Below, piece after piece: positions 1,777 to 58,485 of a DNA stretch of 64,000 nt. Source of the stretch: Symbiodinium natans (lineage: Eukaryota; Sar; Dinophyceae; Suessiales; Symbiodiniaceae). Positions within the stretch are counted from its first letter, which is position 1, and each line of letters opens with the position of its first letter. The DNA lies in contig CAJNDS010002078.1 of NCBI GenBank assembly GCA_905221605.1, positions 1-64,000 on the forward strand, written 5' to 3'. The notes under the pieces were generated by a model. That model was not told the DNA's origin, did not search any database, and saw only the letters and a program-made list of their open reading frames with translations. A program made the translations under genes and the position numbers.

Positions 1777-1873
1777 TCAGGTGCTCATCTCATTACTGTC
1801 TTAAGTGCGCAGCACAGACCTTTTCTGCACTGCGTCTGCGAGTATCCCAGTGCATGAACGTCCACCGGTTTTC
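1777..1873 (-). repeat. split direct repeat B2, 3' terminus of the element
   Basis: 97 bp, identical to 1948-2044. Its outer boundary is the TCAG at 1777-1780. The 26 bp at 1874-1899 separate it from A2. Confidence 0.92.
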
Positions 1874-1899
1874 GGCGGCGAAAGGGTGGGAGAGGCGGG

Positions 1900-1951
1900 A
1901 GAGCTTGAAACCAAACACGACATACACATCAACTCGCACCTATGCTGTCAG
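1900..1951 (-). repeat. split direct repeat A2 (internal copy)
   Basis: 52 bp, identical to 9407-9458. It overlaps B1 by the four bases TCAG (1948-1951), so the B1-A2 junction looks like the joined ends of a circularised element. Confidence 0.92.
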
Positions 1952-2044
1952 GTGCTCATCTCATTACTGTCTTAAGTGCGCAGCACAGACCTTTTCTGCA
2001 CTGCGTCTGCGAGTATCCCAGTGCATGAACGTCCACCGGTTTTC
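1948..2044 (-). repeat. split direct repeat B1 (internal copy)
   Basis: 97 bp, identical to 1777-1873 and offset by exactly 171 bp. It lies just 3' of the recombinase reading frame. Confidence 0.92.
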
Positions 2045-2081
2045 TCCAACCCCACATCTTTCCACCTCATATCATTCAAGC

Positions 2082-3270
2082 TCAGCCAGCCGAAAACTGA
2101 CCAAACCAAGCAGAGGTCGGATATTGCATTGACTGCAAAACAAAAGCCTTCTCGAGGATGATGGCGAAGGAGCGAACTAAAGAGAGAACTCGAGCCTGTG
2201 CCGCAGGTCGAAGCAGATGCACGAACTGAACTGCCGTGATCTCCTGGACGTATATCTCCATCGTTCTGCTACTTAGCCACCGTCCACGCCTTCTTAATAA
2301 CTCTGCGTCCTCCGCGACATGGAACAACCATGTCGCGCCTCCCGCGCGCAACGAGCCCAAATCCAGACAACGTTTTCCTTGGAACTGCCAGACATTGGCA
2401 CCCAGCCTCTGCACTAAGACATTAAAGCGGCTCCGCAAAGTAGAAGCTGACATTGGCCAGAGCTTCTGGTCGAACTTCAGGTGTGCGAATGCAAGCTCAA
2501 CGACTTGCAGCAGTTCGGGCTGGTCCAACTTAGCACTTTGGTGCCTAGCAGCACGATAACGGGTCTTGGGTTCTTGAATGCTCAGTAGTGCAAAGGTTGT
2601 AGTGTGCGCAACGTCACTCGGCAGGACAATGTCGCGGCGGTAAGCTGACAGCGCCTCCCCAATCCTCAATATGCCACCCCAGCAGAGAGCTAGGACGCCT
2701 GCGACTCGGGGCCAGCCCCACATGAGGGCAAGCCCAGTCATGGCCAAAAGCAACTGCCAGGGAAGGGCAACGTGATGGGAATGGGGCTCTTCTCTGAGCC
2801 AGGCAAACGCCAAATCCCAAGCAGGCTGCAGGGCGCGTCGAAGAAGAGGCTCCTTGTTGGCGACAGCGTTTATGACTTCACTGTAATGGGAATAAGGCCA
2901 ACCGGCCTCAAAAAGCTGTCGCCCATACTGCACCAGGAGCCTATTCAGCAGCCTAGTTGAAGGGGCCTCAAGTGAGAGAAGCTCGTCCAAACACTTGCCC
3001 TGCTGAAGAAGCCAGCCGGAAAAATTTTCCAGTAGGTGGTCTCTGCGCTTCTGAGTGACGGGCTCCACCGGCCGTCCTACAGGCAATGTCAGGGAAGATC
3101 TAGCCTGTGCACGCTGAGCGTCAGCAAGGTTTCGCGGCCGCAGGGCGCCATGGCTATAACCTACCTGCCCGAAAAGCCAAAGACCCTGAAAGAGAAGAAC
3201 ACACCCAAACCAAAAAGGCCCCTCACCAGGGAAACCCCGAGTGGAGTCGAAGAGCGTGAGGTCCTGTGGA
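2082..3270 (-). pseudogene. tyrosine recombinase (integrase) domain of the DIRS-like element
   Basis: This domain catalyses integration of the element's cDNA circle. The frame is open from about 3270 to the stop at 2082. The first possible alternative start is a TTG at 3084-3086, but recognisable sequence continues upstream (an FDSTRGFPGEGPFW-like stretch near 3225-3265), so this is probably the C-terminal part of the pol polyprotein. Counting from 3086, the family residues are visible. Arg141 sits in GGILRIGEAL (box I). Arg247 sits in SLRAGGATW (box II), where the usual His is replaced. Trp270 in RRGRW stands at the His/Trp position, and Tyr279 in MEIYVQE is the nucleophile. The domain itself looks intact. 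It is joined to the RNase H frame by a frameshift near 3265-3275, which is why the pol gene is called broken. Confidence 0.85.
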
Positions 3271-4455
3271 AGGAACGCCAGGCAAGGTGTGGACGGAAGG
3301 AAGGGGCGGTGCGACTAACAAGCAAGAAGAGCCTGACCCAGTTGGCTGCCCAACGCCTCAACCTGGGCATAGCAAGGGCTTCAAACAGCTCATCCCGAGG
3401 AAGGTCCTGCCAAAATGAGCTGGCACTTGGCAACGGCATGGCGTAGTCCCTAGTCGGGCAGTCAGCAGGGTTGAGGCGAGTCGGCACGAAATGGAAAGCT
3501 GGAAACAAGCCGGCTGTGATGCAAGTGGCTGCAATTCGGCGGAGGATTGGGCGGAGGCCCCGTGACGGGCTGCGCCCCTTGGAGGATGCATGGAATGCAA
3601 CGGCGGAGTCAACCAGAATCACGAGCCTGCGAGGCCCTTTTGCAGCAAGATGTTTGAGAAGGCGTAAAATGGCAGCGGTCTCCAGGATGTTGATGTGAGC
3701 AGGGCTTCTCCAAACCCACGCTTTGCCTTGCTGCCATTCCAGAGAGAGGACAACATCATTGACCAAAGGATTTTCAAGACCTTCGGCCTGCATGCAAGCA
3801 ATAGAGGCGCAATGCCTTTCGCGACGCAGCGCTTGGTCGATCTCGTGGGCGAGAGCTTTCGCAAGCAACGGTGTGTACCTTGCCGAGCCTTTTGCCTTGC
3901 CACCTTGTACCTGAACATGGGGATGATCTCGGGCGCACGGCTTGCAGAACCCAGTGAGGTCAATGCCAACGGCTAAGAAACGAAGTTCCCTTCGAGAAGG
4001 ACTGCCATAGGCACAAGAGGAGGTGATGAACTCCCGAGCACCAAGGTAAAGAAGGCGCCTCCACTCCGCAAGCCAAGCCAGTTTCGAAAGCCTGGGTTGC
4101 TCAAGGAGACCTATGACTCCACATGTCAAGGCAACGAACATGAGGCACAGAGCACGGAGAGCGAGAGTTGTACCAGCAAGCGTTCGCTTCTCAGTGGGGA
4201 CATACCCTCTTGGCTCTTCATAGCTGCGGAAAGCAGGGTACGCCGCACAGCTGAAGGTGGCGCAGGGCGGCGTGATGAGGAAGCTCTTCAGTCGGCCTTT
4301 CTGAATGAGATGTATGAGCCACTCAAGGACCCGGAGCCAAGTCAGGTCAAAAGCGGGGCTATGGGAAAGGTCAAGAACCGGACCCGTACGCCTACCTAAC
4401 AAACCCATAAAGTGAGTGACCCTGCCGGAGCCTCCGCAAATTTCAATGAACTCAA
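3161..4455 (-). pseudogene. methyltransferase-like domain plus C-terminal RNase H lobe of pol
   Basis: The frame is open from about 4455 to 3161, although its first ATG is at 4406-4408. The 5' part resembles a DNA methyltransferase fold: a glycine-rich motif FIEICGGSGRV near 4420-4452, PPCATFS at about 4250-4270 (compare the PPC catalytic loop of cytosine-5 enzymes), LLEQP near 4094-4108, and a conserved C..DHPHVQ stretch. The 3' part is RNase H: HINILE with Glu at 3680-3682, LVDSAV with Asp at 3608-3610, and RLNPADCPTRD with Asp at 3461-3463. The first RNase H aspartate lies upstream in the RT frame at 4600-4602, so the methyltransferase-like segment sits inside RNase H. Entry from the RT frame needs a frameshift near 4445-4460, and exit to the recombinase frame needs one near 3270. 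Methylation activity and target are not known. Confidence 0.75.
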
Positions 4456-6810
4456 ACGGTCGGTGAAGCGGGAAAGAACAGCCTCTTCCTTCGAGAGCAA
4501 CCTGCTGTAGCCCCCTTTCTTAGAAGCCATGCGCCAGAGGGGCCTAGTCACGGTTTCTCCTGCATTGGAAGTGACAAAGGCGCCTTTTTTCTCGGAGGCA
4601 TCCGAGGCATACAGGGTTGAGTCCATCACTGCAGCGAGGTCGGTGGATGCAAGGGGACAAAGGACACTGAGCACGGTCAACTCTTCAGCAACGGTCCTGG
4701 GCAGCTGCACCAAGACAGGTCTCCTCACGTCAGTCTCAGAAGCGTTGACGAGGCTGAAAGCTGAAGCCAGAACAGCCATAAGGGGGCGACGGAACAACAG
4801 AACCGAAGTCCAACTCCCAAGCAAAGACAAGTGAAGGCAGTCAGTGGTGTGGCTTAGGCGGGCGACCTCGGCGGAAACAATGGCCAGCGCAATTCGCTTT
4901 GGGCTGGGTGCACCCCATGGGACAAGACCCCTTGCGCGAGCATACGGAGTAGAGTTAAGCTCGGCTCCGGCAATTTTCGCAAAGTCGGTGCCCTTTATGT
5001 CCTTTTCATCGGACCCCAACAATCCTTTCTGCAGATAAGTGTCTTTGGCCGTGCGAAGGTGATCCAGGCAAGCAGGCTGGGACGCGGACTTGAGGTCATG
5101 AACACAAACAGAGAAGAAATCGTCTATTACAAGACCCTGCGCCTCGGTGACGCCTTTAAAAGGCCTGTTTGAGCATAAGCGACTGGATTCGCCCAAAAGG
5201 CCGGCGTCTTCGAGCAGACCCGTATGAGCGCAACATGCTATTTCAACACCGAGTTGATCTCCCTGGGCGATGCTCTTGAAGCAAACCAGGAGACGGTCGC
5301 GTTCGAAGAGCAGGGGAGCACGGTCGTCGGTGAAGGGCACATCTGAAAGGCAATCACCTCTGGCCTCCCTCGAAAACTTTCCTCCCTTGGAGGCAGCTTG
5401 GTACTGACGAAAGGCCCTCGTGGAGGTGAGCCAGGAAGAAGGAAGAGCCGGGCCAACGGCGTTGCAGACCGCTTTGGGGGGTCCGACAGCAATCTGGTGC
5501 TAGAAGTCTTTTCTGTCAGTGGCAGCGCAGAGGACTGACTGCGTCTTTGGGTTCACCTCAAGCATGCCCAGCATGGGCCCTACCGGGATGTACAAGCTAG
5601 GTCCCGAAAGCCTGCACTCAGCAAGGTTTTGTCCTCGGCGGTCCATGATTTGACGGTCCCTTCCGGCATCCTTATAACAGTTAAACACGCGGGATAGCCT
5701 ATAGCTATGTGAGGCCGGGGTCATGGCCGGAGCGAGATGCAGCAAGCCCTGCTCATCCCACATGTGGGCTAGAGCACGCGTCTCGGCGGGGCTCTCACGG
5801 GTCCAGACAGGGACAAAGTCATCCGGGGGAGGCATGCTGTGCAGAAGGGACTTTGGTTCGGCCCAAGCCATGAAGAGCTCATCATCAAGATGGGGGGACG
5901 GATCCCAAAGACCCCGTCCTGAGAGTTTGAGCCGTGCGACATCGAGCGTCCTGTAAGGCTCAAGGGAAGGCAGCACATCATTGCGGGGTGGAACAACAGT
6001 ACCCGAAGCATCGGCATAAGTGTCTCCACCGACCACCTGAGAGGCGGTCAAGAAAGCAGAAAGCTCGGAGAGGCGTGCAATTAATTGGGGATTGCGGCGG
6101 CCGGAGTCAGCAAGCACAAAGTCTTCGACAGAGGCACCGAAAGCCTTCAAATGCCTACCCACATGCGCGACCAGGCATCGCTGTGCAGCAGTAGGGTGGC
6201 GCTGGAGAGCAGGGGCAGGGATTGGCACAAAGTTGGCATGAAGATAGTTGAGGGCCATGCAAACAATGTGCAGGAGACGCCTGTGCATGATGCGTCTTCT
6301 AAAGCGAGACCCCTTTTCAAACGAGAAGCGTTCAAAAGCTCCTGGGTATGGCACAGGGAGTGGGAAGACGGAATCACTCCCACTCCGTGAAGGCTGTGTA
6401 GGCTTGTCAAGCCTAGGCAAGTGCAGAGTAGACTTAAGAAAAGAAGAAAACTGGGTCCTGGTGCGCAGGACGGCTCTTGTGAGGCCACCGACCCAAGTGG
6501 CGAATGAGACCTGGGTCTCGAAGCCCAAGCTCCGGGGCTCTTTATTTTTCACGGCGTCAGTCTTTGACAGGCCGGGAGGCGGACCAAAACAAGCCGGCGC
6601 CTTCCCTACTGAGTGGTATGCTGGCTTGGAAACAGCCCTCAGGGCGGCAGACACCTGCTCAGAACAGGAGACGACAGGACTATCCCTGGCAACCCCTAAA
6701 CCTGATGAAACCACATGTGCATTGACAGGCGGTGAACTCACGCCGGGAGCCTCAAGCAAGGACCTACAAGAACTATCAACCCGGACAGCCCCTAAACCTG
6801 AGGAGGCCAT
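4396..6810 (-). pseudogene. reverse transcriptase of the DIRS-like element, interrupted by a TAG
   Basis: The first ATG in this frame after the gag stop is at 6808-6810. Fingers/palm motifs follow: a DRQIMDRRGQN-like stretch near 5640, a GPSLYIPVG stretch near 5590, and motif A DRKDF at 5503-5517. The next codon, 5500-5502, is TAG where relatives have Tyr, and the same frame then continues with HQ and the rest of the domain. Motif C is VIDDFF at about 5113-5130, with the two catalytic aspartates present. The frame then enters the first RNase H strand (ASDAS, Asp at 4600-4602) and stops at 4396 after slipping out of frame near 4450. Apart from the TAG the domain looks complete. Either this copy is dead or the stop is recoded or a sequence error. 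The frame is also open far upstream across the gag gene, but that stretch does not look protein-like. Confidence 0.85.
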
Positions 6811-6842
6811 GGAGGCTGCATCCGGAAGCAGGCTTGCAAGTC

Positions 6843-8501
6843 TCACTTGGACAGGTCGGCCTTGGGTTTCCGAGGATATCTGGGAGGCCGTTTGGGCTTG
6901 TTCTGGTCCGCTGGGGCAATCTCGGACGAAGCAGGCTGATGGAGCTGAGGCGGGTGTTGGGATCCTCTTGGCGCATTCCCCAGTGTCTCCAGGCGTCTGG
7001 CGGTGATCAAATCGACCTCTTTCAGATACTGGAGTGCACAAGTCGTCCATGCCACAGGGGACAGCGGTGAGAATGCCCTTGTGCGAGGATTGGCCACGGT
7101 GCCTCTCCCATGGAAGAGTTGGGGCGGCGGCTCTTCTAGTAAGGTGAGCAGCCACGCGAAGTCCCATCGCCCGCCGTCTATGGATGACTGATCCATAGCG
7201 ACAAAAGTGAGTGCAAGGAACTCTTGGGCTCCCTGGTAGTCTTGCTGGATCATCGCGTCCATGACGTGCGCAAGGCACCACATTGCGTAGCCTTGTTCCC
7301 TCTGCCCGGCGAATCCCCCATATCTTTCTAGGTACTGACACATAAGCGCCGATTCGGTGAAGGCATCTAGTGAGGCAGGACATGGCGTCGCAGGGTGCAA
7401 TCTTTTGTGCGCAGCTTGCACTACCTGTAGGAAGAACTCCCCTGAACGGGTCGAGAGGGCATTCTGAAGCTTCTCTCTTTTTGCAGCCCCCTTTGCCCCG
7501 ATAGCGCTTGACGCTGAAGTCGCAAGGTCGCCCAGGCCCCCCTCCTGCTGAGCCACGAGGTGCCCTACTAGAGCAGACAAAGCCTGAGACTGTTGCAGAA
7601 CCGCGGCCTGGAAAACGTCGGAAGGCTCCGGTGCTGGCGGGAGATCTTGGCCCAAAGATGCGGAGGCAGCCTGTTGACCTGAGCAGGCCTGGGCCTCGGG
7701 TCTCACGCGAGGAGGGGGGCCAATCAGCTGAGCCTGCTTTGCCAGAGGTAGACCCGGCCCTTTTGGCAATGCTCCCAAAAAGGACTGCTGGTGGGCTGGA
7801 GTGAGCCCTGGCGGGGACGCCTGAGGAGCTGCCTCCAGCGCATCTTGTCTCTTGCGGAGTTCTGCCAGTTGTCCAGCAAGTTGAGGCAGGACTTTGGAAA
7901 GATCCGACAACTGGGCAGCTAGCTCGGCGTTTGTGACCTTGCGCTTGGCTGCAGCCGCCTTCTTCGCCTTCGCCTTGGGAAGAACCTCCTCCGCCACCAC
8001 AGCCGGCTCCTCCAAAGCAGAGTAGAAGGCCGCCCTGTTTGCGGTCGTCTCTGTCAGCCACTGGTGGGCTGCGGCAAGGAGCTCGTCCGACAGGGGCATG
8101 GCCTCGGGCTGACCTATCACGAAAGGGAACAGCTCCTCGCTGCCGAGATCTTCCGCGGCCTCCCTGAGCAGAGGCAACACACCCAGCGACAGGTCCAACA
8201 AGACCACCGGACCCTCCGTGTCTAAGGGAACCTCTAAACCTTGCTCGTCCAACACCCCGAAAGGAACGCGCAGCTGCTGGTAGGGACCAACCAACGCATG
8301 AGGGTCCGACTCCTCGCCGCCTTCGAGGGCAGACAGAGCCAGGAAGCCAGAAGGAATTGCAAGGAGGAGGCCTCCCTGCCGCTTCATGACAGGGATGGCC
8401 GGTGCTTCTGCAAGAGGAGCTGTCCTCTCCTCCTGCTCCCAAGTGAGTGCCAACGAGGAAGGAGCCCCATCGGCCAGGAACTCGATGTTGGCAAACTCCA
8501 T
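6843..8501 (-). CDS. gag-like structural protein (ORF2) of the DIRS-like element
   Basis: A 552-codon intact frame from ATG 8499-8501 to TGA 6843-6845. It sits at the gag position, immediately upstream of the reverse transcriptase. The N-terminal third is acidic. Residues about 165-215 form an Ala/Lys/Leu-rich segment likely to be a coiled coil, followed by a Pro/Gln-rich linker. Then comes a well-structured region with many aromatic residues (WCLAHVMDAM, WDFAWLLTLL), and the end is strongly basic and proline-rich (KPKRPPRYPRKPK), suited to nucleic-acid binding. No CCHC zinc knuckle is visible. The start codon overlaps the stop of ORF1 as TAATG. The reverse transcriptase lies in another frame, its first ATG 33 nt past this stop. 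The gag assignment rests on position and composition, not on a recognised domain. Confidence 0.65.
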   Translation of the reverse strand: MEFANIEFLADGAPSSLALTWEQEERTAPLAEAPAIPVMKRQGGLLLAIPSGFLALSALEGGEESDPHALVGPYQQLRVPFGVLDEQGLEVPLDTEGPVVLLDLSLGVLPLLREAAEDLGSEELFPFVIGQPEAMPLSDELLAAAHQWLTETTANRAAFYSALEEPAVVAEEVLPKAKAKKAAAAKRKVTNAELAAQLSDLSKVLPQLAGQLAELRKRQDALEAAPQASPPGLTPAHQQSFLGALPKGPGLPLAKQAQLIGPPPRVRPEAQACSGQQAASASLGQDLPPAPEPSDVFQAAVLQQSQALSALVGHLVAQQEGGLGDLATSASSAIGAKGAAKREKLQNALSTRSGEFFLQVVQAAHKRLHPATPCPASLDAFTESALMCQYLERYGGFAGQREQGYAMWCLAHVMDAMIQQDYQGAQEFLALTFVAMDQSSIDGGRWDFAWLLTLLEEPPPQLFHGRGTVANPRTRAFSPLSPVAWTTCALQYLKEVDLITARRLETLGNAPRGSQHPPQLHQPASSEIAPADQNKPKRPPRYPRKPKADLSK

Positions 8502-8503
8502 TA
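8499..8503 (-). promoter_or_regulatory. TAATG stop-start overlap between ORF1 and ORF2
   Basis: On the minus strand the ORF1 stop TAA and the gag-like ATG overlap as TAATG. Such UAAUG overlaps are known to support translational coupling in some retroelements. A functional role here is inferred. Confidence 0.5.
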
Positions 8504-9127
8504 TTGCTCCGAGTCGGGCAAGTCAAAGCCTGCAGCTTCACAGTAAATGGCAGCTTCTGCGATGGATGCAAAGGCGTGGCACAGTGCGTCACTGCCTGAA
8601 AGGGGTCCGACAAGCTTATGGAAGTCTTTGGCTGTGGAGCAACGAAGAGGCTTGACAAGGCCGTTTGCCCGAATGACCACGTAGATGCGAGACCGGATGG
8701 TTGAAGGAAGGCGTGAAGAGGGGCGGGGCTTCGGAACCCTGTCCTCAAGCACCGCACGGACCCACTGTCCTGCTTTCCAGGCACGGGTGGCTCTTTCTGT
8801 AGAGCTGGACCCTGAACCAGAAAGGGACCTGCAGGCTTGCACACAGCGATGAGGCACAGTAGGGAAAGCAGCCTCAAGTTCGTCGTAGCGAGCGCTGAGG
8901 GCCGATGCAGACAAAGAGGAGTGATGCAGTGACGCGGGTTCGGAGGCCACACGGGAACCAGGCTCTCCGGGGCTAGGGCCTACTACCTCCACCCAACTAG
9001 CAACCGAACCTCTAGGGCTGGAGGTGTCGGGGTGGGTTTGTGCTGCAGGTGCAGTCGATACGGACAGCTGCTCAAGTGCCTCGGCCAAATGGTGAATCGA
9101 TGCGGCCAGATCAGCAGGATCACTCAT
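8501..9127 (-). CDS. ORF1 of the DIRS-like element, function unknown
   Basis: A 208-residue intact frame starting at ATG 9125-9127. The frame is open further upstream to about 9385, but that part has Ser/Pro/Phe-rich shadow-like composition, so this ATG (MSDPADL...) is preferred. The N-terminus is acidic and helical, the middle Ser/Pro-rich, and the C-terminal half has a regular composition around TIRSRIYVVIRANGLVKPL and KDFHKLVGPL. I recognise no domain. It is the first gene in the element, about 280 bp inside repeat A1. Its TAA stop (8501-8503) shares two bases with the ATG of the gag-like frame, an arrangement that favours coupled termination and reinitiation. Confidence 0.6.
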   Translation of the reverse strand: MSDPADLAASIHHLAEALEQLSVSTAPAAQTHPDTSSPRGSVASWVEVVGPSPGEPGSRVASEPASLHHSSLSASALSARYDELEAAFPTVPHRCVQACRSLSGSGSSSTERATRAWKAGQWVRAVLEDRVPKPRPSSRLPSTIRSRIYVVIRANGLVKPLRCSTAKDFHKLVGPLSGSDALCHAFASIAEAAIYCEAAGFDLPDSEQ

Positions 9128-9406
9128 GCAAGTACCCTCTAAGCCTAAGGGATGGGGGCCTAGGAACCCTAGGGGTACTAAGGGTTTCAGGCGCAGGCTG
9201 GAAGGGCACAGGCTCGCACGGAAGTCGGACGAAAAGGGCCTCTCGGAAGAGAAGGAGGGTGGCGAGCACGCCAAATGTGAAGCCGACGCAAAGGCACAAG
9301 ACAAGGAGAAGGAGAGATCCCTGGCAATGGGAAGGACAACCCAAACCCCACCAGTTGGTGGCAACTCCAGAATGAACCAGATCAACCAACTGGGGCAACC
9401 ACATCA

Positions 9407-9458
9407 AGAGCTTGAAACCAAACACGACATACACATCAACTCGCACCTATGCTGTCAG
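9407..9458 (-). repeat. split direct repeat A1, 5' terminus of the element
   Basis: 52 bp, identical to 1900-1951. It ends outward with TCAG on the plus strand, and identity with the other copy stops exactly there. It is the 5' end of the retroelement in its coding direction. Confidence 0.92.
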
Positions 9459-11103
9459 TTGTCTGTGGATGCTGAGGGCTGCTGGCAATGGCATGCGGCA
9501 AAGCGCTACCTGGCAGCTCCCTCACATCTTACTTGACAGCACAAATTGCTGGCGACTCAGCAAGGAAACAAGGCCCCTCTTCCCCCAGAGCAGGCGCACT
9601 TGTGAGCGCGGCGCTGAAAAAGGCTGATCCAAGACAGAGCCACTGCAAGGTCGGGATTCGGCCTGAGCTGTTCCGGCAGGATCTAGGCACAGGTCTGGGT
9701 AGCCGGGCCTTGGGCCCTTGGGTTTCTCAGCCGAGGCCTCACGGCTGTTTAGGGGTCGGGCTCCTGAAGTCTCCTTTACGGCTGAGGGCTTCGCGCCAGC
9801 GTTTCGTCTTGAAAGCTTTGAGGGAGTTCGCGGCTCAAGCGTTTGCATGTGACCTGCGACCCTACAAGTAGGATGTCAAGTCTCAGACTGCAGGTCAGCT
9901 CCCGAAAGTTATGTCCTTTTGGGTCCCAATAAAGAGACCCATGTGATACTTAGGGCACCCAACCTAGTCAAGAGGGTGGTACCTTTGGCCCCCCTTTCAC
10001 TCACAACAAGCATGCTGAGGGCGAGGCCCAGAGTCGGATGCAACCTTTTGCCAGGGTTGCTTTTTGGAGCGACAATCCACTGACGCAACTGACGCAACCA
10101 TCTTGCAACATGTCAGAATGGTCTAGTTCAGGCCACGCTGCAGCAGCAGCCACGCGAGCAGGATGCCGACACATTCCGCGCATGAGACGATCAGCATCTC
10201 CATTGCCGGGCTGGTCCAGTCACCCTCCATCTCAGTGAAAATCCTCTGGTTTATGATGCTGCATGCTGTCGCGAAATTGGGTACAGATGCTTCTACCAGT
10301 AGAACTGTTGACCCAAGGGCTGTTTATGGCTCCAGGGCTGTAAGGGTTAGGGCCGAGAGGGTGGCGAGGGGATCTGTGCAACCAGGCAGCTGCGTAAACG
10401 CCTTGGGACTGCAGAGGAGAGTTGCCATCGAAAGCATGGTCACTACGTCTTGCCGCGTCAGCCTGCTCAATACAAGCCATGAAGCGAAGGTAGTGCCGTA
10501 AAACAGGTAGTTCATCAGAAAGGCCAGGTATGATGCCAGCACCAGTGTCCTGCAATCCCCGAATGCACTACACACTTGGGTCGATGGATCTCTGCTATGA
10601 AGGTCCAGAGAACTTTTGGCGCATTTCCTGCAGTGGCCACCATGGACAATGGTGTGCCAAGTGGATGTCAACGTCTTGGATGAGGCAGAGCATGTCTGCT
10701 GGACCTCTTCAATTTGCGCGTTTGTCTCGCAAGCTCTGAGACTGAAGCTGGGAGATTTCACGTCTCAAGGATTTGTTTGTGCTAGATTTGCTAGGTGCAA
10801 CCTGTGCAATTCCAAAGTGCTGTGCAGCCTGAACCGAGCTGAGCGATCCATTGCTCAGCTTTTTTGATCACAATTCTGCAGCGCAGCTGCCTCAATGTCG
10901 ACGTCATCTTTTCCATGAAGGCGCTGCATCCTGGCCTCAGTGTGACGGGAAACTGAAGTGACCTCACGAGACCGGTTGATCGACCACGTGTCGCATGGCT
11001 CCACGATTCTAAACTCAACGGAAACAGGTGCACATGGCCTACACTGTCTCGTACACGATCTGCACGACCGGAACCGAACCCTTCCATTCTTGACGTGCAT
11101 CAT
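9459..11103. other. intergenic; one weak membrane-type exon candidate
   Basis: No family is recognised. On the minus strand, about 10324-10545, a frame reads as a hydrophobic segment (SYLAFLMNYLFYGTTFASWL) after an AG-G junction, but another minus frame over the same bases is equally open. I therefore do not call a gene. Confidence 0.35.
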
Positions 11104-11955
11104 CGACATACATACATACATACATACACATACATACACATACATACACATACATACACATACATACACATACATACACATACATACACATACATACACA
11201 TACATACACATACATACACATACATACACATACATACACATACATACACGTACATACACATAAATACACATACATACACACACATTACATGATACATACA
11301 ACATACACATACATACACATTTACACACACTACAACATACATACATATACATACACATACACATATACCTACATATATACAATTACATACTATACATATA
11401 CATATACATACCATATATACATATACATACATATACAGATACATACATATTACATATACATTACATATTCATATACATATACATTATACATACATATACA
11501 TACATAATAGATACATGTACATACATATACATAATACATATGACATACATATACATACATATTACATACATATACATTATAGATACATATAGATACATAT
11601 ACATTACATATACATATACATACATATACATACATATACATACATATAGATACATATAGATACATATACATACATATATACATACATATACATACATATA
11701 CATACATATACATAATATACATACATTATACATACAATATACATACATATACATACATATACATACATATACATACATATACATACATATACATACATAT
11801 AGATACATATAGATACATATACATACATATACATACATATACATACATATACATACATATACATACATATACATACATATACATACATATACATACATAT
11901 ACATACATATACATACATATACATACATATACATACATAAACATACATACACACA
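11104..11955. repeat. CATA-type microsatellite complex
   Basis: About 850 bp of ACATACACAT units (to about 11300) grading into ACATACATAT and irregular CATA/TATA units. All open frames here (Tyr/Thr/His/Ile-only or Met/Tyr/Val/Cys-only proteins) are repeat artefacts. Confidence 0.95.
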
Positions 11956-14190
11956 TGCACACATACATCCCTCCCTCACTCCCTGCCTCCATCCACGCAT
12001 GCACGCACGCATTTATACACACGCACACATACGCATCATTTCATGTGGCACCCTACCGGTCGTAGGAACCATCTACAGCACGCTTGGGAGAGTCTTTTTG
12101 GAGAGACCGGGAAAGTCATTCAACGTTGTTGGGCAGGTCTGGGCAAGCAAGACCCTTCCTGCTCCAAGCGCAAGCTACAAGTCTTCCGGCCAAAGCCCCC
12201 AACAGGCCGAACGAACGGCCGCTGACACTTCCTTGTGCCTCTGCTACACGAATGCCCCACGTGTGCCCTCAAGCATTCCAGAAATTGCGCCGCTGCGGGG
12301 GACTAGGCTACCAGGCCAGCAACTCTTTGAGCTCCTGGTGCTTCCCACTGAGCTGTAGCCAGCTGGGCGACTCCTGCACTAGGAGTCCTCGGCCGGCTTC
12401 TTTGCTTCTGTGCTTCTTTGCTTAAGCAGGTTCGGCTGTGCACCCAACGAAACGTGAAGCAACCACATCACCGCGACAACTTGACACGCGCTGCTTTGGC
12501 GACGAGGCGCCCAGCGGGCTCATGATGAAGGCAGGCAGCACGCCCCAAACGCACAAGAGTCGCCACGGCCCCTGAGGTAGTACAGCCAAGCAGCACGCTC
12601 GTGAAGTGGGCACAGTAGACTTGTGACAGTACAGTACATGGGAGATGTTGCACTATTTATGTCACTTCTCCTAGGAAGGCGCCCCACCCTGCTATCTTGG
12701 GATCCTTTCTGCTGTTCTCCCTTCCCCCGGATTTGCAAGTGGAAAGGCCCACAGATAAGATATCACTGCGAGCAAGGGATTCAGCGAAATGCAGGTGAGG
12801 AGCTTGGAGGTTTGGCATGAAGAGCAGCAGCCCAAGAGCTGTCCAAGCCTCTCCAAGCCTCGAAAAGAATCAACGACTTTGCAGGCTACAATTGCAGGAC
12901 CCGCAGGTTTATGCCTTTGAGCTGCCGCCTAGCAACACGTAGGCGAAGCCTGTGGCGTTGCTAAGGGGCCCTCTCTGCTGGGTCGGCGTGGCCTGCCAGA
13001 TTGGGCAAGAAGCAAGGACCCAGTAAAGAGCATAACAGGCAGGCTCGGGCAACAGCGAAAAGTAAAACAGCAATCTGTACCATGAGCACGCTGCAAGCTT
13101 TGCAGGATGGCCGCAATGTGTTGTGGGACATGATCGCCACTGGTAGGGCTGGACATATTGATTGGCCAATGACTTCTAACCTGGCTACAATTCGGTTCAA
13201 TGGGCTGGTGCCCTCCACATTTGAACTTTCTTGAAATAGTGGCACGGAAGATGCAAACAAAAAAGAGTAGCCGGAGTTCCCCTACTTTTCGGGCCTCCGT
13301 CAGCAGCGTGACTGCGGACGGTCCGCCGATGCCGATGGCACAGCCCAAGCTGATCCTCAAAAGGAACTCCCGCTATCAGGGGAATCTGATGTTCCGAAAG
13401 GGCAAGTGCAAACGAAGCTGATGCTGTGAACTGCTTTAGCGAGATACAGAATCAAACATCTTCAGCGGGGCTCACTGTTTCATTCTATATACAACTTTTC
13501 ATGTCGTGGCAGATGACTGCAACGTGCCAAGTTATCATCTTCCGGCCATCGATCACTATGCCTTCGCGCAAAACGCAAGCCAGAAGGGCACACCAATTTC
13601 TGGGTGCCCTCCGCCTTACGTCATGTCTCTGGGCAGGAACCGTGTGTAGGAAGGCTTGTCCTGGACTCCCGGACTGCGGATAAGCGTCTGAATGAAAAAG
13701 AGCTCGCCGATTGTCTGCACGATCCTACAGTTGGTGCAAAATTCAAGTTTCAAGTCCGAATATGCGAAACTGCTTTGAGGCATACCGAATCGGTCATTGA
13801 GCAGGTCATCTTTATGGGCCAGCATCAGTCCAGGTTTGGATGTAACAGTGCACATCGCATGTCCCATGGCAAGGGAGAAAGCTGTACATAAGCTGCACTT
13901 AGAATGCATCCAGGGTACGAGCAAGCCAGTCCGAAAACGCTGACGAGGCAGAGGGAGACCATGCAAATGCGGCGGCGCCCAAACCTGGTGCGAATGTCTG
14001 TGAATATCTGTGGATCACGTGGTCTATTCTCAAAAGGCAAGGGATGGTCTCCCAACATGTCCGCATGCTTGTCTCCATGTTAGCAGGGTGCGCCTGCTAC
14101 TCAAGGGCCCACTCAGCAGGTTCCCCATCTGCATGCCGGCAAAGGAGCTCGACCTGACTCTGTGACTCTGTGCCGACTCCTGGCTGAAAG
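11956..14190. other. intergenic; no gene assigned
   Basis: It begins with CCCTCCCT and CGCACGCA short repeats to about 12030. Beyond that, open frames are short and compete on both strands. A minus-strand frame at 13616-13830 is protein-like in composition but has no recognisable motif. Confidence 0.4.
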
Positions 14191-51764: not shown

Positions 51765-53177
51765 TCAAAAGAAGGGCCAGGGCTTGCCGGTAGCGACCGC
51801 TTGGGTCACGATGCCGCTAAAGGCGAACATGGCAAGGCGTCCATTCTCCAACTCCTTCAGGCGCATGTCCTTCTCCTTCGCAGGATCCTTGGGCAGGAAC
51901 TGCTTGCCGAGCCAGTAGTCCCCTGCGTCACGGTTGATGCCCTCTCCGAGCGGCCAGGACTGGAAGAACAGCCACAGCGAGAACAATTCGAAGACACCAA
52001 CCGCACCCAAGAAGGGCAGCATGTAGCCGGCTTCGACCATCTTGTCATGGGCCTCGACGCTGTTTGCCACGGCCTGGAACTTCTCACCGGGGAATCGGAA
52101 GCCCAAGTCTGTCGCAATCCATCCAACCGTCGCGAGCATGCAAATGCGTCCATGCTTCAGTTCAGCCTCGCGCACCCAGTAGACGGGCAGCGCGTCGGTC
52201 ACACCGAGCGGATCGAAGCCCTTCTCCTCACCGACCCAGCCTTTGAGGACCTGAGGATACCTCAAAAAGGGCACGGAGGGAGACATCTCCATCTCCTTGG
52301 GGTAGGTCTCCAGCTCAACGTAGTCGCCCTCAGCCAGCTTCTGGATGGCATGCATCGTGGTGCGACCAGTGCGACCGCTAGGAAGAGCGCAGAGGTTTGG
52401 CTGCCTGCAGAGGCCAATGTTTTGAACAATGAACTGCACAGGCTCACCCCAAAAGCCGTTCTTGTTCATGTAGCTCAGAGGAGCTTCGCCGAAGGTCCCA
52501 TCCTGCCACATGAGGCCCATGATGGCGACCATGGCCAGGCGGCCGTTGTTGCGCTCGGAGGTCAACCTGCGCTCCAGCTCCTCGTCGTCAATGCCGTCAA
52601 GGAGCTCCGTGCCGTTGCCAAAGTCGAAGCTGCCCAAACCACCCTCGCGAGGCTTCACAAGCACCTCGTGGGCACCGACCAAGGCAAAGAGCTGGATCCA
52701 GCCTTCTAAAGGGATGCTTTCAAATGCTCCAAGCCCGTGCTTGAAGTCCTCGCAGCCGGGAAAGCGGAAGATTTCTGGCATAATGTAGCCAACAACTGCG
52801 ATCATGGAGACTCTGCCGTGCTTGATCTCCACAGCCGTGTATCGCTCCATCTTCGCGTCGGTGTCGCCCAAGTTCAGGGGGTCAAACTTTTCCGTGAGCG
52901 GCATGCACACACCGACCACGTTGCGCTCCACACGGCGCGGCGCTGGGCGGGCGCGGAAGGCTGTGGCGCCAGCGACAACCGCAGCGGTTGCCAAGCCGGC
53001 GGTGGCCCAGGAGCCGGACGACGCTGATGCCGAGGCCGAAGGAGCCACCGACGAGGCCGAGGCAGAGGCCGAGGCCGGCGCGTTGCCCCTGAGGCTTTGG
53101 CCGGCTGGCACGAAAGCCATGGCAGGGGCCGCGCACGCAGCCAAGGCGGCCGCAGATGCCCAAGTGCTCGGAGCCAT
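51765..53177 (-). CDS. two-domain light-harvesting chlorophyll-binding polyprotein (acpPC/LHC family)
   Basis: A thylakoid antenna protein binding chlorophyll and carotenoid. The 470-residue intronless frame starts at ATG 53175-53177. The leader suits dinoflagellate plastids: a hydrophobic signal peptide (residues 5-20), an AFVP motif near 22-25, a Ser/Ala-rich transit region, then a second hydrophobic stretch (about 57-74). Two LHC units follow. Unit 1 has helix-1 motif EIKHGR (117-122) and helix-3 motif ERNNGRLAM (208-216). Unit 2 starts with SPSVPFLRYPQVLKGW near 299, then FDPLG, helix-1 ELKHGR (339-344), and helix-3 ELENGRLAM (442-450). Glu/Arg pairs for chlorophyll ligation are present in all four helices. 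A linker of about 55 residues (240-295) lies between the units and may be a processing site. LHC polyproteins are known in dinoflagellates and euglenids. The stop is TGA at 51765-51767. Confidence 0.93.
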   Translation of the reverse strand: MAPSTWASAAALAACAAPAMAFVPAGQSLRGNAPASASASASSVAPSASASASSGSWATAGLATAAVVAGATAFRARPAPRRVERNVVGVCMPLTEKFDPLNLGDTDAKMERYTAVEIKHGRVSMIAVVGYIMPEIFRFPGCEDFKHGLGAFESIPLEGWIQLFALVGAHEVLVKPREGGLGSFDFGNGTELLDGIDDEELERRLTSERNNGRLAMVAIMGLMWQDGTFGEAPLSYMNKNGFWGEPVQFIVQNIGLCRQPNLCALPSGRTGRTTMHAIQKLAEGDYVELETYPKEMEMSPSVPFLRYPQVLKGWVGEEKGFDPLGVTDALPVYWVREAELKHGRICMLATVGWIATDLGFRFPGEKFQAVANSVEAHDKMVEAGYMLPFLGAVGVFELFSLWLFFQSWPLGEGINRDAGDYWLGKQFLPKDPAKEKDMRLKELENGRLAMFAFSGIVTQAVATGKPWPFF

Positions 53178-53229
53178 GGTCACGACTAGAGGCTAGATCA
53201 CAACCTTTGCCTAGCCCTTTTAAGCCCTA

Positions 53230-57763: not shown

Positions 57764-57900
57764 TGTATTGTATATACTGTATCTACCATATATACTATAC
57801 ATACTATAATATTATATATATATATATACATATACATTATACTATACATGCTATATATACTATGCATACTATATATCTATATTATACATATATATATACT
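57537..57900 (+). repeat. TATGTATAC and TATGTATG microsatellite block
   Basis: About twelve TATGTATAC nonamer units (57560-57665), then TATATA and GTAT runs. Confidence 0.93.
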
Positions 57901-57928
57901 TTTTCCTATATACACTATACAATATACA

Positions 57929-58485
57929 AGTTTCTTGGGCTTTGAAGCGCGCTCTGCACGGCTTAAAACAAAAAAAAGCGGGGGGGTTGGGGGGGGCGCA
58001 GCCCCCCCCATTTGCAAACACAATGCTCACACGATGCTTTTCAACTAGTTTCTTGGGCTTTGAAGCACGCTTGGTACGGCTGAAAAGAAGCGGGGGGGGC
58101 GGGGGGTTGGGGCACAGCCCCCATCTGCAAACACCCTGCTCACATGATGGGTTTCAACTAGTTTCTTGGGCTTCGGCTGAAAAAAAGCGGGGGGGTTGGG
58201 GGGGGCGCAGCCCCCCCCATTTGCAAACACAATGCTCACACGATGTTTTTCAACTAGTTTCTTGGGCTTTGAACGGCTTAAAAGAAGCGGGGGGGGGTTG
58301 GGGGGTCTGCGCCCCCCATTTGCAAACACCCTGCTCACATGATGGGTGTCAACAAGTTTCTTGGGCTTTGAAGCGCGCTCTGCACGGCTTAAAAAAAGCG
58401 GGGGGGGGTTGGGGGGGGGCAACCCCCCCCATTTGCAAACACAATGCTCATACGATGTTTTTCAACTAGTTCTGGGCTTTGAAGC
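57929..58485 (+). repeat. ~110-bp satellite with two alternating unit types
   Basis: Units begin at AGTTTCTTGGGCTT at 57929, 58047, 58160, 58256 and 58355, with a truncated sixth at 58468. Units 1, 3 and 5 end with ACAATGCTCA.ACGATG; units 2 and 4 end with CCCTGCTCACATGATGGG. Each contains a G-rich run, GGGTTGGGG, and a C-rich partner that can pair as a hairpin. Confidence 0.93.

Follow-up and report, generated by a model that had tools for sequence, protein, structure and literature searches.

The window analysed here, a 64,000-nucleotide stretch of Symbiodinium natans DNA, carries a PAT-type DIRS retrotransposon at 1777-9461 that is complete, although damaged, and all features of this element lie on the minus strand. 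It starts with the left split direct repeat, A1 (9407-9461), whose 55 nt are 98% identical to A2 (1900-1954). The coding region is followed by B1 (1948-2044), by A2, which overlaps B1 by a 7-nt core, and by B2 (1777-1873), which forms the right end of the element and is 100% identical to B1 (97/97). We therefore observed the order A1-coding-B1-A2-B2, and such a split-direct-repeat layout is typical of PAT-type DIRS elements. The 7-nt core common to B1 and A2, CACCTGA, is also present at the right end (1777-1783), while the left end (9455-9461) has CAACTGA instead. Such a difference between the ends would be expected had one of the cores come from the target by recombination.

Within the coding region, two gag-like open frames from the ORF list (8504-9403 and, in another frame, 6846-8522) were assigned from their position alone. 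They are followed by the N-terminal part of a reverse transcriptase (5503-6000, start approximate), which we based on DRKDF at 5503-5517, presumably a reverse transcriptase motif, and which ends at an in-frame stop (5500-5502). The C-terminal part of this enzyme (4618-5499) has VIDD at 5119-5130. By motif, the reverse transcriptase is thus placed before the RNase H, as in PAT-type DIRS elements, and a VIDD-like motif was found about 175 aa before TDAS in seven of the ten relatives inspected; in Pfam searches, the RVT_1 match reached only E 0.19, in L037. Next come a first part of RNase H (4474-4617), a compact C5-type methyltransferase (MT; 3824-4456, borders approximate) and a second part of RNase H carrying the catalytic Glu and two Asp residues (3449-3760). 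The last open frame (2085-3314) contains a motif, seen by eye, which we take to be tyrosine-recombinase-like. A Pfam search of this frame gave no significant match, and one relative, L003, gave a weak match to PF00589 (E 0.26). We regard the window copy as damaged because of the stop in the reverse transcriptase and because ASDAS is encoded in an ORF (4399-5499) that overlaps the MT-RNase H ORF (3164-4519) in a different frame.

Outside the element, we noted a long tandem array (11106-11968) having about 87 copies of the 10-base unit ACATACATAC. A GC-poor stretch on the plus strand (57810-58466) contains a translated repeat with units like HLQTPCSHDGFQLVSWAL. A 475-aa ORF on the minus strand (51768-53192) appeared by eye to be a chlorophyll-binding (light-harvesting) polyprotein, which fits a photosynthetic dinoflagellate.

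RNase H sequence on both sides of a methyltransferase

The original prediction had put a methyltransferase-like domain inside the RNase H of this element, and each motif it named was found on the minus strand where it had been placed. ASDAS has the first Asp at 4600-4602. Downstream of it lie FIEICGGSGRV (4418-4450), PPCATFS (4250-4270) and LLEQP (4094-4108) of the MT, and then the Glu of HINILE (3680-3682) and the Asp residues of LVDSAV (3608-3610) and NPAD (3461-3463). The prediction had also taken about 40 codons as the usual distance between the first Asp and the Glu. This value agrees with E. coli RNase HI (38 aa), but not with the element's own uninterrupted relatives, seven of which have 75-89 aa between the first and the second motif. 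As these relatives are already so widely spaced, the net insert amounts to about 220-250 aa. In the window family, the distance from DAS to HIN was 308-329 aa within one open frame in all 10 non-redundant relatives that were aligned, so the spacing seen in the window is not due to chance.

These relatives came from a search of the genome (759 Mb, 2543 contigs), in which the 452-aa MT-RNase H ORF of the window had at least 104 matches. Among the 104 matches listed, 27, the window's own included, ran from the MT into the second part of RNase H within one alignment. We chose 10 non-redundant relatives from 30 loci. A TDAS-like motif, the methylase and HINxLE followed each other in a single open frame in 10/10. 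This frame extended upstream by at least 330 aa in eight of them, reaching the reverse transcriptase, and began 82 and 177 aa before the TDAS-like motif in L002 and L011, respectively. The open frames of the relatives reached up to 2725 aa with the same domain order.

We also examined 20 further loci, a non-random sample picked by hand mostly from rows that matched one part alone. Four had the nested arrangement in an open frame (L047-L050) and one had it with a frame break (L034). An uninterrupted RNase H with no methylase in the frame examined was found in six (L031, L036, L037, L039, L044 and L046), of which L044 was left out of later analyses. In two, a methylase of the same family came after an uninterrupted RNase H (L043:3643-4929 and L045:3385-4977); here the intact RNase H and the MT stand in series, the order of classical DIRS elements, and the enzyme is C5-type. 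Larger inserts were present in five (L033, L038, L040, L041 and L042), and two had the second part of RNase H only and were given no class (L032 and L035).

A profile was built solely from seven uninterrupted RNase H domains (L031, L036, L037, L039, L043, L045 and L046). In 14/14 nested ORFs with the compact methylase, this profile matched in two successive pieces, one on each side of the MT. The two pieces in the window fell in its two ORFs, at profile positions 5-52 (iE 1.8e-6) and 64-170 (iE 1.1e-26). The first piece had an iE of 2.1e-4 or better in 13 of the 14 ORFs (0.024 in L005), and the second of 1.1e-16 or better in all of them. The first piece stopped at profile position 39-54 in 12/14 (68 in L049, 83 in L024) and the second began at 53-79 in 12/14 (44 in L016, 21 in L047), these four exceptional matches extending into the insert. 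With reversed ORFs as a control, the best of 19 gave an iE of 0.63. This splitting of an uninterrupted profile on either side of the MT supports the predicted nesting inside RNase H. A check for a second complete RNase H beside the MT was also negative in the frames examined, within the extracted loci, where all remaining profile matches had an iE of 2 or worse.

We identified the host domain as RNase H from its position after the reverse transcriptase, its invariant residues and its comparison with RNase HI. Four acidic residues, D-E-D-D, were invariant and in order in 13/13 aligned rows, as in type 1 RNase H, and by eye they follow the order of the RNase HI set. Comparison by hhalign with E. 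coli RNase HI and four phage RNases H gave modest P values of 0.0013 (local) and 0.0028 (global), compared with 0.46 and 0.27 for reversed controls; the local probability against RNase HI was only 18.7%. The nearest Pfam family was PF00336, which stayed below its cut-off (E 0.0011 for L037). Single-sequence AlphaFold models were poor for the window MT together with the second RNase H part (mean pLDDT 43.6) and middling for the second part by itself (pLDDT 61.2). The latter model has strands, helix, strand, helix and strand, and its best Foldseek match, at a marginal E of 0.024, was an RNase H domain.

Could a complete RNase H simply follow the MT, which would then separate it from the reverse transcriptase, with ASDAS belonging to a connection domain? 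The sequence searches against Pfam and PDB, which recognised no RNase H family above their cut-offs, would be in keeping with such an arrangement. However, seven relatives have TDAS/TDAA/TDAT, HIN/HSG, DS/DA and NPAD-like motifs in one uninterrupted stretch, the profile of that uninterrupted domain splits in every nested ORF, and the global comparison aligns TDAS on TDGS of E. coli RNase HI. We therefore consider a connection domain improbable. Far less credible still is that the window copy, being broken and rearranged, shows this order by accident. The stop in its reverse transcriptase and the frame changes between its parts might suggest so, but the relatives keep the same order in long open frames, and the 27 matches spanning the MT and the second RNase H part also speak against it. 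With the identities of both domains included, it is thus very probable, judging from the sequences, that a compact C5-type MT of about 210 aa interrupts RNase H in its middle, with the segment carrying the first Asp on one side and that carrying Glu-Asp-Asp on the other.

Identity of the methyltransferase and loss of its catalytic Cys

By sequence, the insert is assigned as a compact C5-type cytosine methylase of about 210 aa resembling small phage enzymes. Motifs I, IV (Cys), VI (Glu), VIII and X, in the usual numbering for C5 methylases, were seen by eye in this order in the window and in the Cys-bearing relatives. The MT of L048 matched, over a third of its length, an Inoviridae DNA methyltransferase (E 5e-5); this 218-aa protein in turn matches PF00145 at 4.3e-9, and a 222-aa Bacillus phage enzyme likewise matches PF00145. 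When 18 MT domains were compared with the two compact phage enzymes, a one-template comparison, we obtained a probability of 98 and an E of 2.7e-13 over 199 columns. A comparison without the compact phage enzymes was not significant (P 0.11). PHROG 757 (DNA methyltransferase) was matched by L045 (0.0014), L048 (0.0061) and L012 (0.33), and by none of the other three of the six MTs compared. Pfam searches gave no match to PF00145 in the window ORF, the 13 aligned family members, L047, L048 or L045, and the window MT had no match to DNMT3. The compact phage C5 methylases (Inoviridae MW202486 and Bacillus phage BM15; phrog_757) are about 220 aa long, give a full-length profile match and by eye have the same motif order as the window family. 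They are separate genes, whereas the MT of the window family is fused within RNase H. From its length and motif spacing, the MT would have little room for a target-recognition domain.

Among the 14 aligned rows, we found the motif IV Cys in seven (the window, L007, L010, L011, L012, L016 and L048) and missing in the other seven (L002, L003, L005, L019, L024, L026 and L047). On the tree of these rows, the pattern takes four changes, at least three of which are forced by well-supported branches. Two loci outside that tree, L049 and L050, retain the Cys. By eye, erosion also affects motif I in L003, L024 and L026; of these three, only L026 still has the motif VI Glu. As the Cys is missing in half of the rows while the RNase H residues are invariant, several lineages could dispense with MT activity, which argues that the marking of the element's own cDNA, tentatively proposed in the original prediction, is not needed in all of them.

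Constraint was measured on near-identical pairs. Twelve pairs were compared and 10 pooled, L002 being used twice; their best aligned pieces are 97.0-99.95% identical, and the pairs may be haplotype duplicates. The pooled dN/dS was 0.36 for the MT (22.5 nonsynonymous and 20.5 synonymous changes), compared with 0.23 both for the reverse transcriptase with the first RNase H part and for the second part, and 0.24 downstream of the latter. Two partner copies had a stop in the reverse transcriptase stretch, and none had one in the MT. On these sequence data, the MT is constrained overall, slightly less than the neighbouring domains, and its catalytic Cys has been lost more than once.

The insert might then be no more than a passive passenger in decay, inactive and trapped in the nuclease because its removal must be exact. 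The absence of the Cys in seven rows, with its repeated changes on the tree, and the erosion of motif I and loss of the motif VI Glu in some of the same relatives are what such a passenger should display. On the other hand, seven rows, the window among them, retain the Cys, the pooled dN/dS of the MT over the 10 pairs is 0.36, and the MT has no stop. We consider a mere passenger rather unlikely.

Larger inserts and known methylase-bearing elements

The five ORFs with larger inserts all matched the second part of the uninterrupted RNase H profile strongly (5/5). Their first part was matched weakly (iE 0.33 to 6.3), and in L038 it was not matched. In four of the five, the second piece begins between profile positions 22 and 31 (at 71 in L033), which suggests that the larger insert lies nearer to the first Asp than the compact MT does. 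Because L047, a row with the compact methylase, likewise starts at 21, we relied also on inspection of L033 by eye, in which a segment like LWRRADKKG comes after the insert and not before it. The insert of L033 is Dnmt3-type (PF00145, 3.6e-6; DNMT3A, 6.6e-9), and at L033:1157-2965 this methylase has an SDAS motif before it and the second RNase H part after it. The insert of L041 had no Pfam match. In a tree of the reverse transcriptase and RNase H with 24 rows, from which L002 and L038 were left out, a branch with support 100/99 separated the window family (9 rows) from all other rows, and another with support 100/100 did so for the larger-insert group (4 rows). Two likely insertion points and two types of methylase therefore suggest, at the sequence level, at least two nestings of methylases in RNase H.

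The closest known system is SymbioDIRS-Dnmt3, a dinoflagellate DIRS-like retrotransposon having a cytosine methylase in its Pol frame, an A-coding-B-A-B repeat layout and a tyrosine recombinase, according to the passages covered of its description (de Mendoza et al. 2018, PMC5890265). The window element shares with it the DIRS-like character, a cytosine methylase with Pol and the A-B-A-B repeats, as well as, putatively, a recombinase. However, the methylase of SymbioDIRS-Dnmt3 is Dnmt3-type, while that of the window family is compact and has no PF00145 match; moreover, the compact MT seems to be at a different point of RNase H from the Dnmt3-type insert of L033. The recombinase of SymbioDIRS is described there as a separate ORF, whereas in L003, with its weak PF00589 match, it is apparently in the same frame. 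The passages covered do not mention nesting in RNase H; the arrangement of L033 suggests that the methylase may also be nested in published SymbioDIRS-Dnmt3 elements. For retrotransposon methylases, the same passages report CG methylation as shown and cDNA methylation as proposed (PMC5890265).

DIRS1-like elements also have an MT in Pol with reverse transcriptase and RNase H, and a tyrosine recombinase, but in the part of the source consulted their order is RT-RNase H-MT, the MT following RNase H in series (PMC3266345). Their MT is Dam-like adenine type and comes after RNase H, whereas that of the window is C5-type and inside it, and DIRS1 has inverted terminal repeats in place of split direct repeats. 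The original prediction referred to the methyltransferase that DIRS elements carry near RNase H. Its placement of the domain within RNase H is supported, but with a C5-type enzyme this is not simply the Dam-like MT moved inward. Among titles and abstract openings in the open-licence literature, we found no description of a methylase nested in RNase H. Within the literature searched, the compact methylase family and its nesting inside RNase H are new, and so is the coexistence of uninterrupted, downstream, nested and Cys-lacking forms.

A possible two-enzyme machine

It is likely that both RNase H parts would fold together as one nuclease. The MT would then protrude from an already enlarged RNase H loop, probably the one joining the second strand to the third, a placement that we infer from the middling model of the second part and from the alignments. 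As the MT could not be released without cutting the nuclease, the two enzymes would sit on the same reverse-transcription complex. With so little space for target recognition of its own, the MT may borrow nucleic-acid binding from the reverse transcriptase and RNase H; that it does so and methylates cytosines in the new cDNA is a tentative proposal. In the Cys-lacking lineages, the MT has probably been kept in a structural role within the nuclease, since nesting would make even a Cys-less domain hard to remove cleanly. It is conceivable, though we hold it with reserve, that the enlarged RNase H loop is a recurrent docking site in dinoflagellate DIRS elements. Compact phage-like and Dnmt3-type methylases would have nested there independently, giving a machine with two active sites, for RNA degradation and cDNA methylation, in which the methylase of several lineages would be a dead but obligatory structural piece.

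One enzyme nested in another is uncommon. In a mobile element, a second enzyme interrupting a catalytic domain would physically link reverse transcription and DNA methylation. As PF00145 misses this methylase family here, counts of methylase-bearing retrotransposons based on PF00145 may be low. With Cys-bearing, Cys-lacking, downstream and absent methylases in one genome, the role of the MT in DIRS elements becomes testable by comparison.
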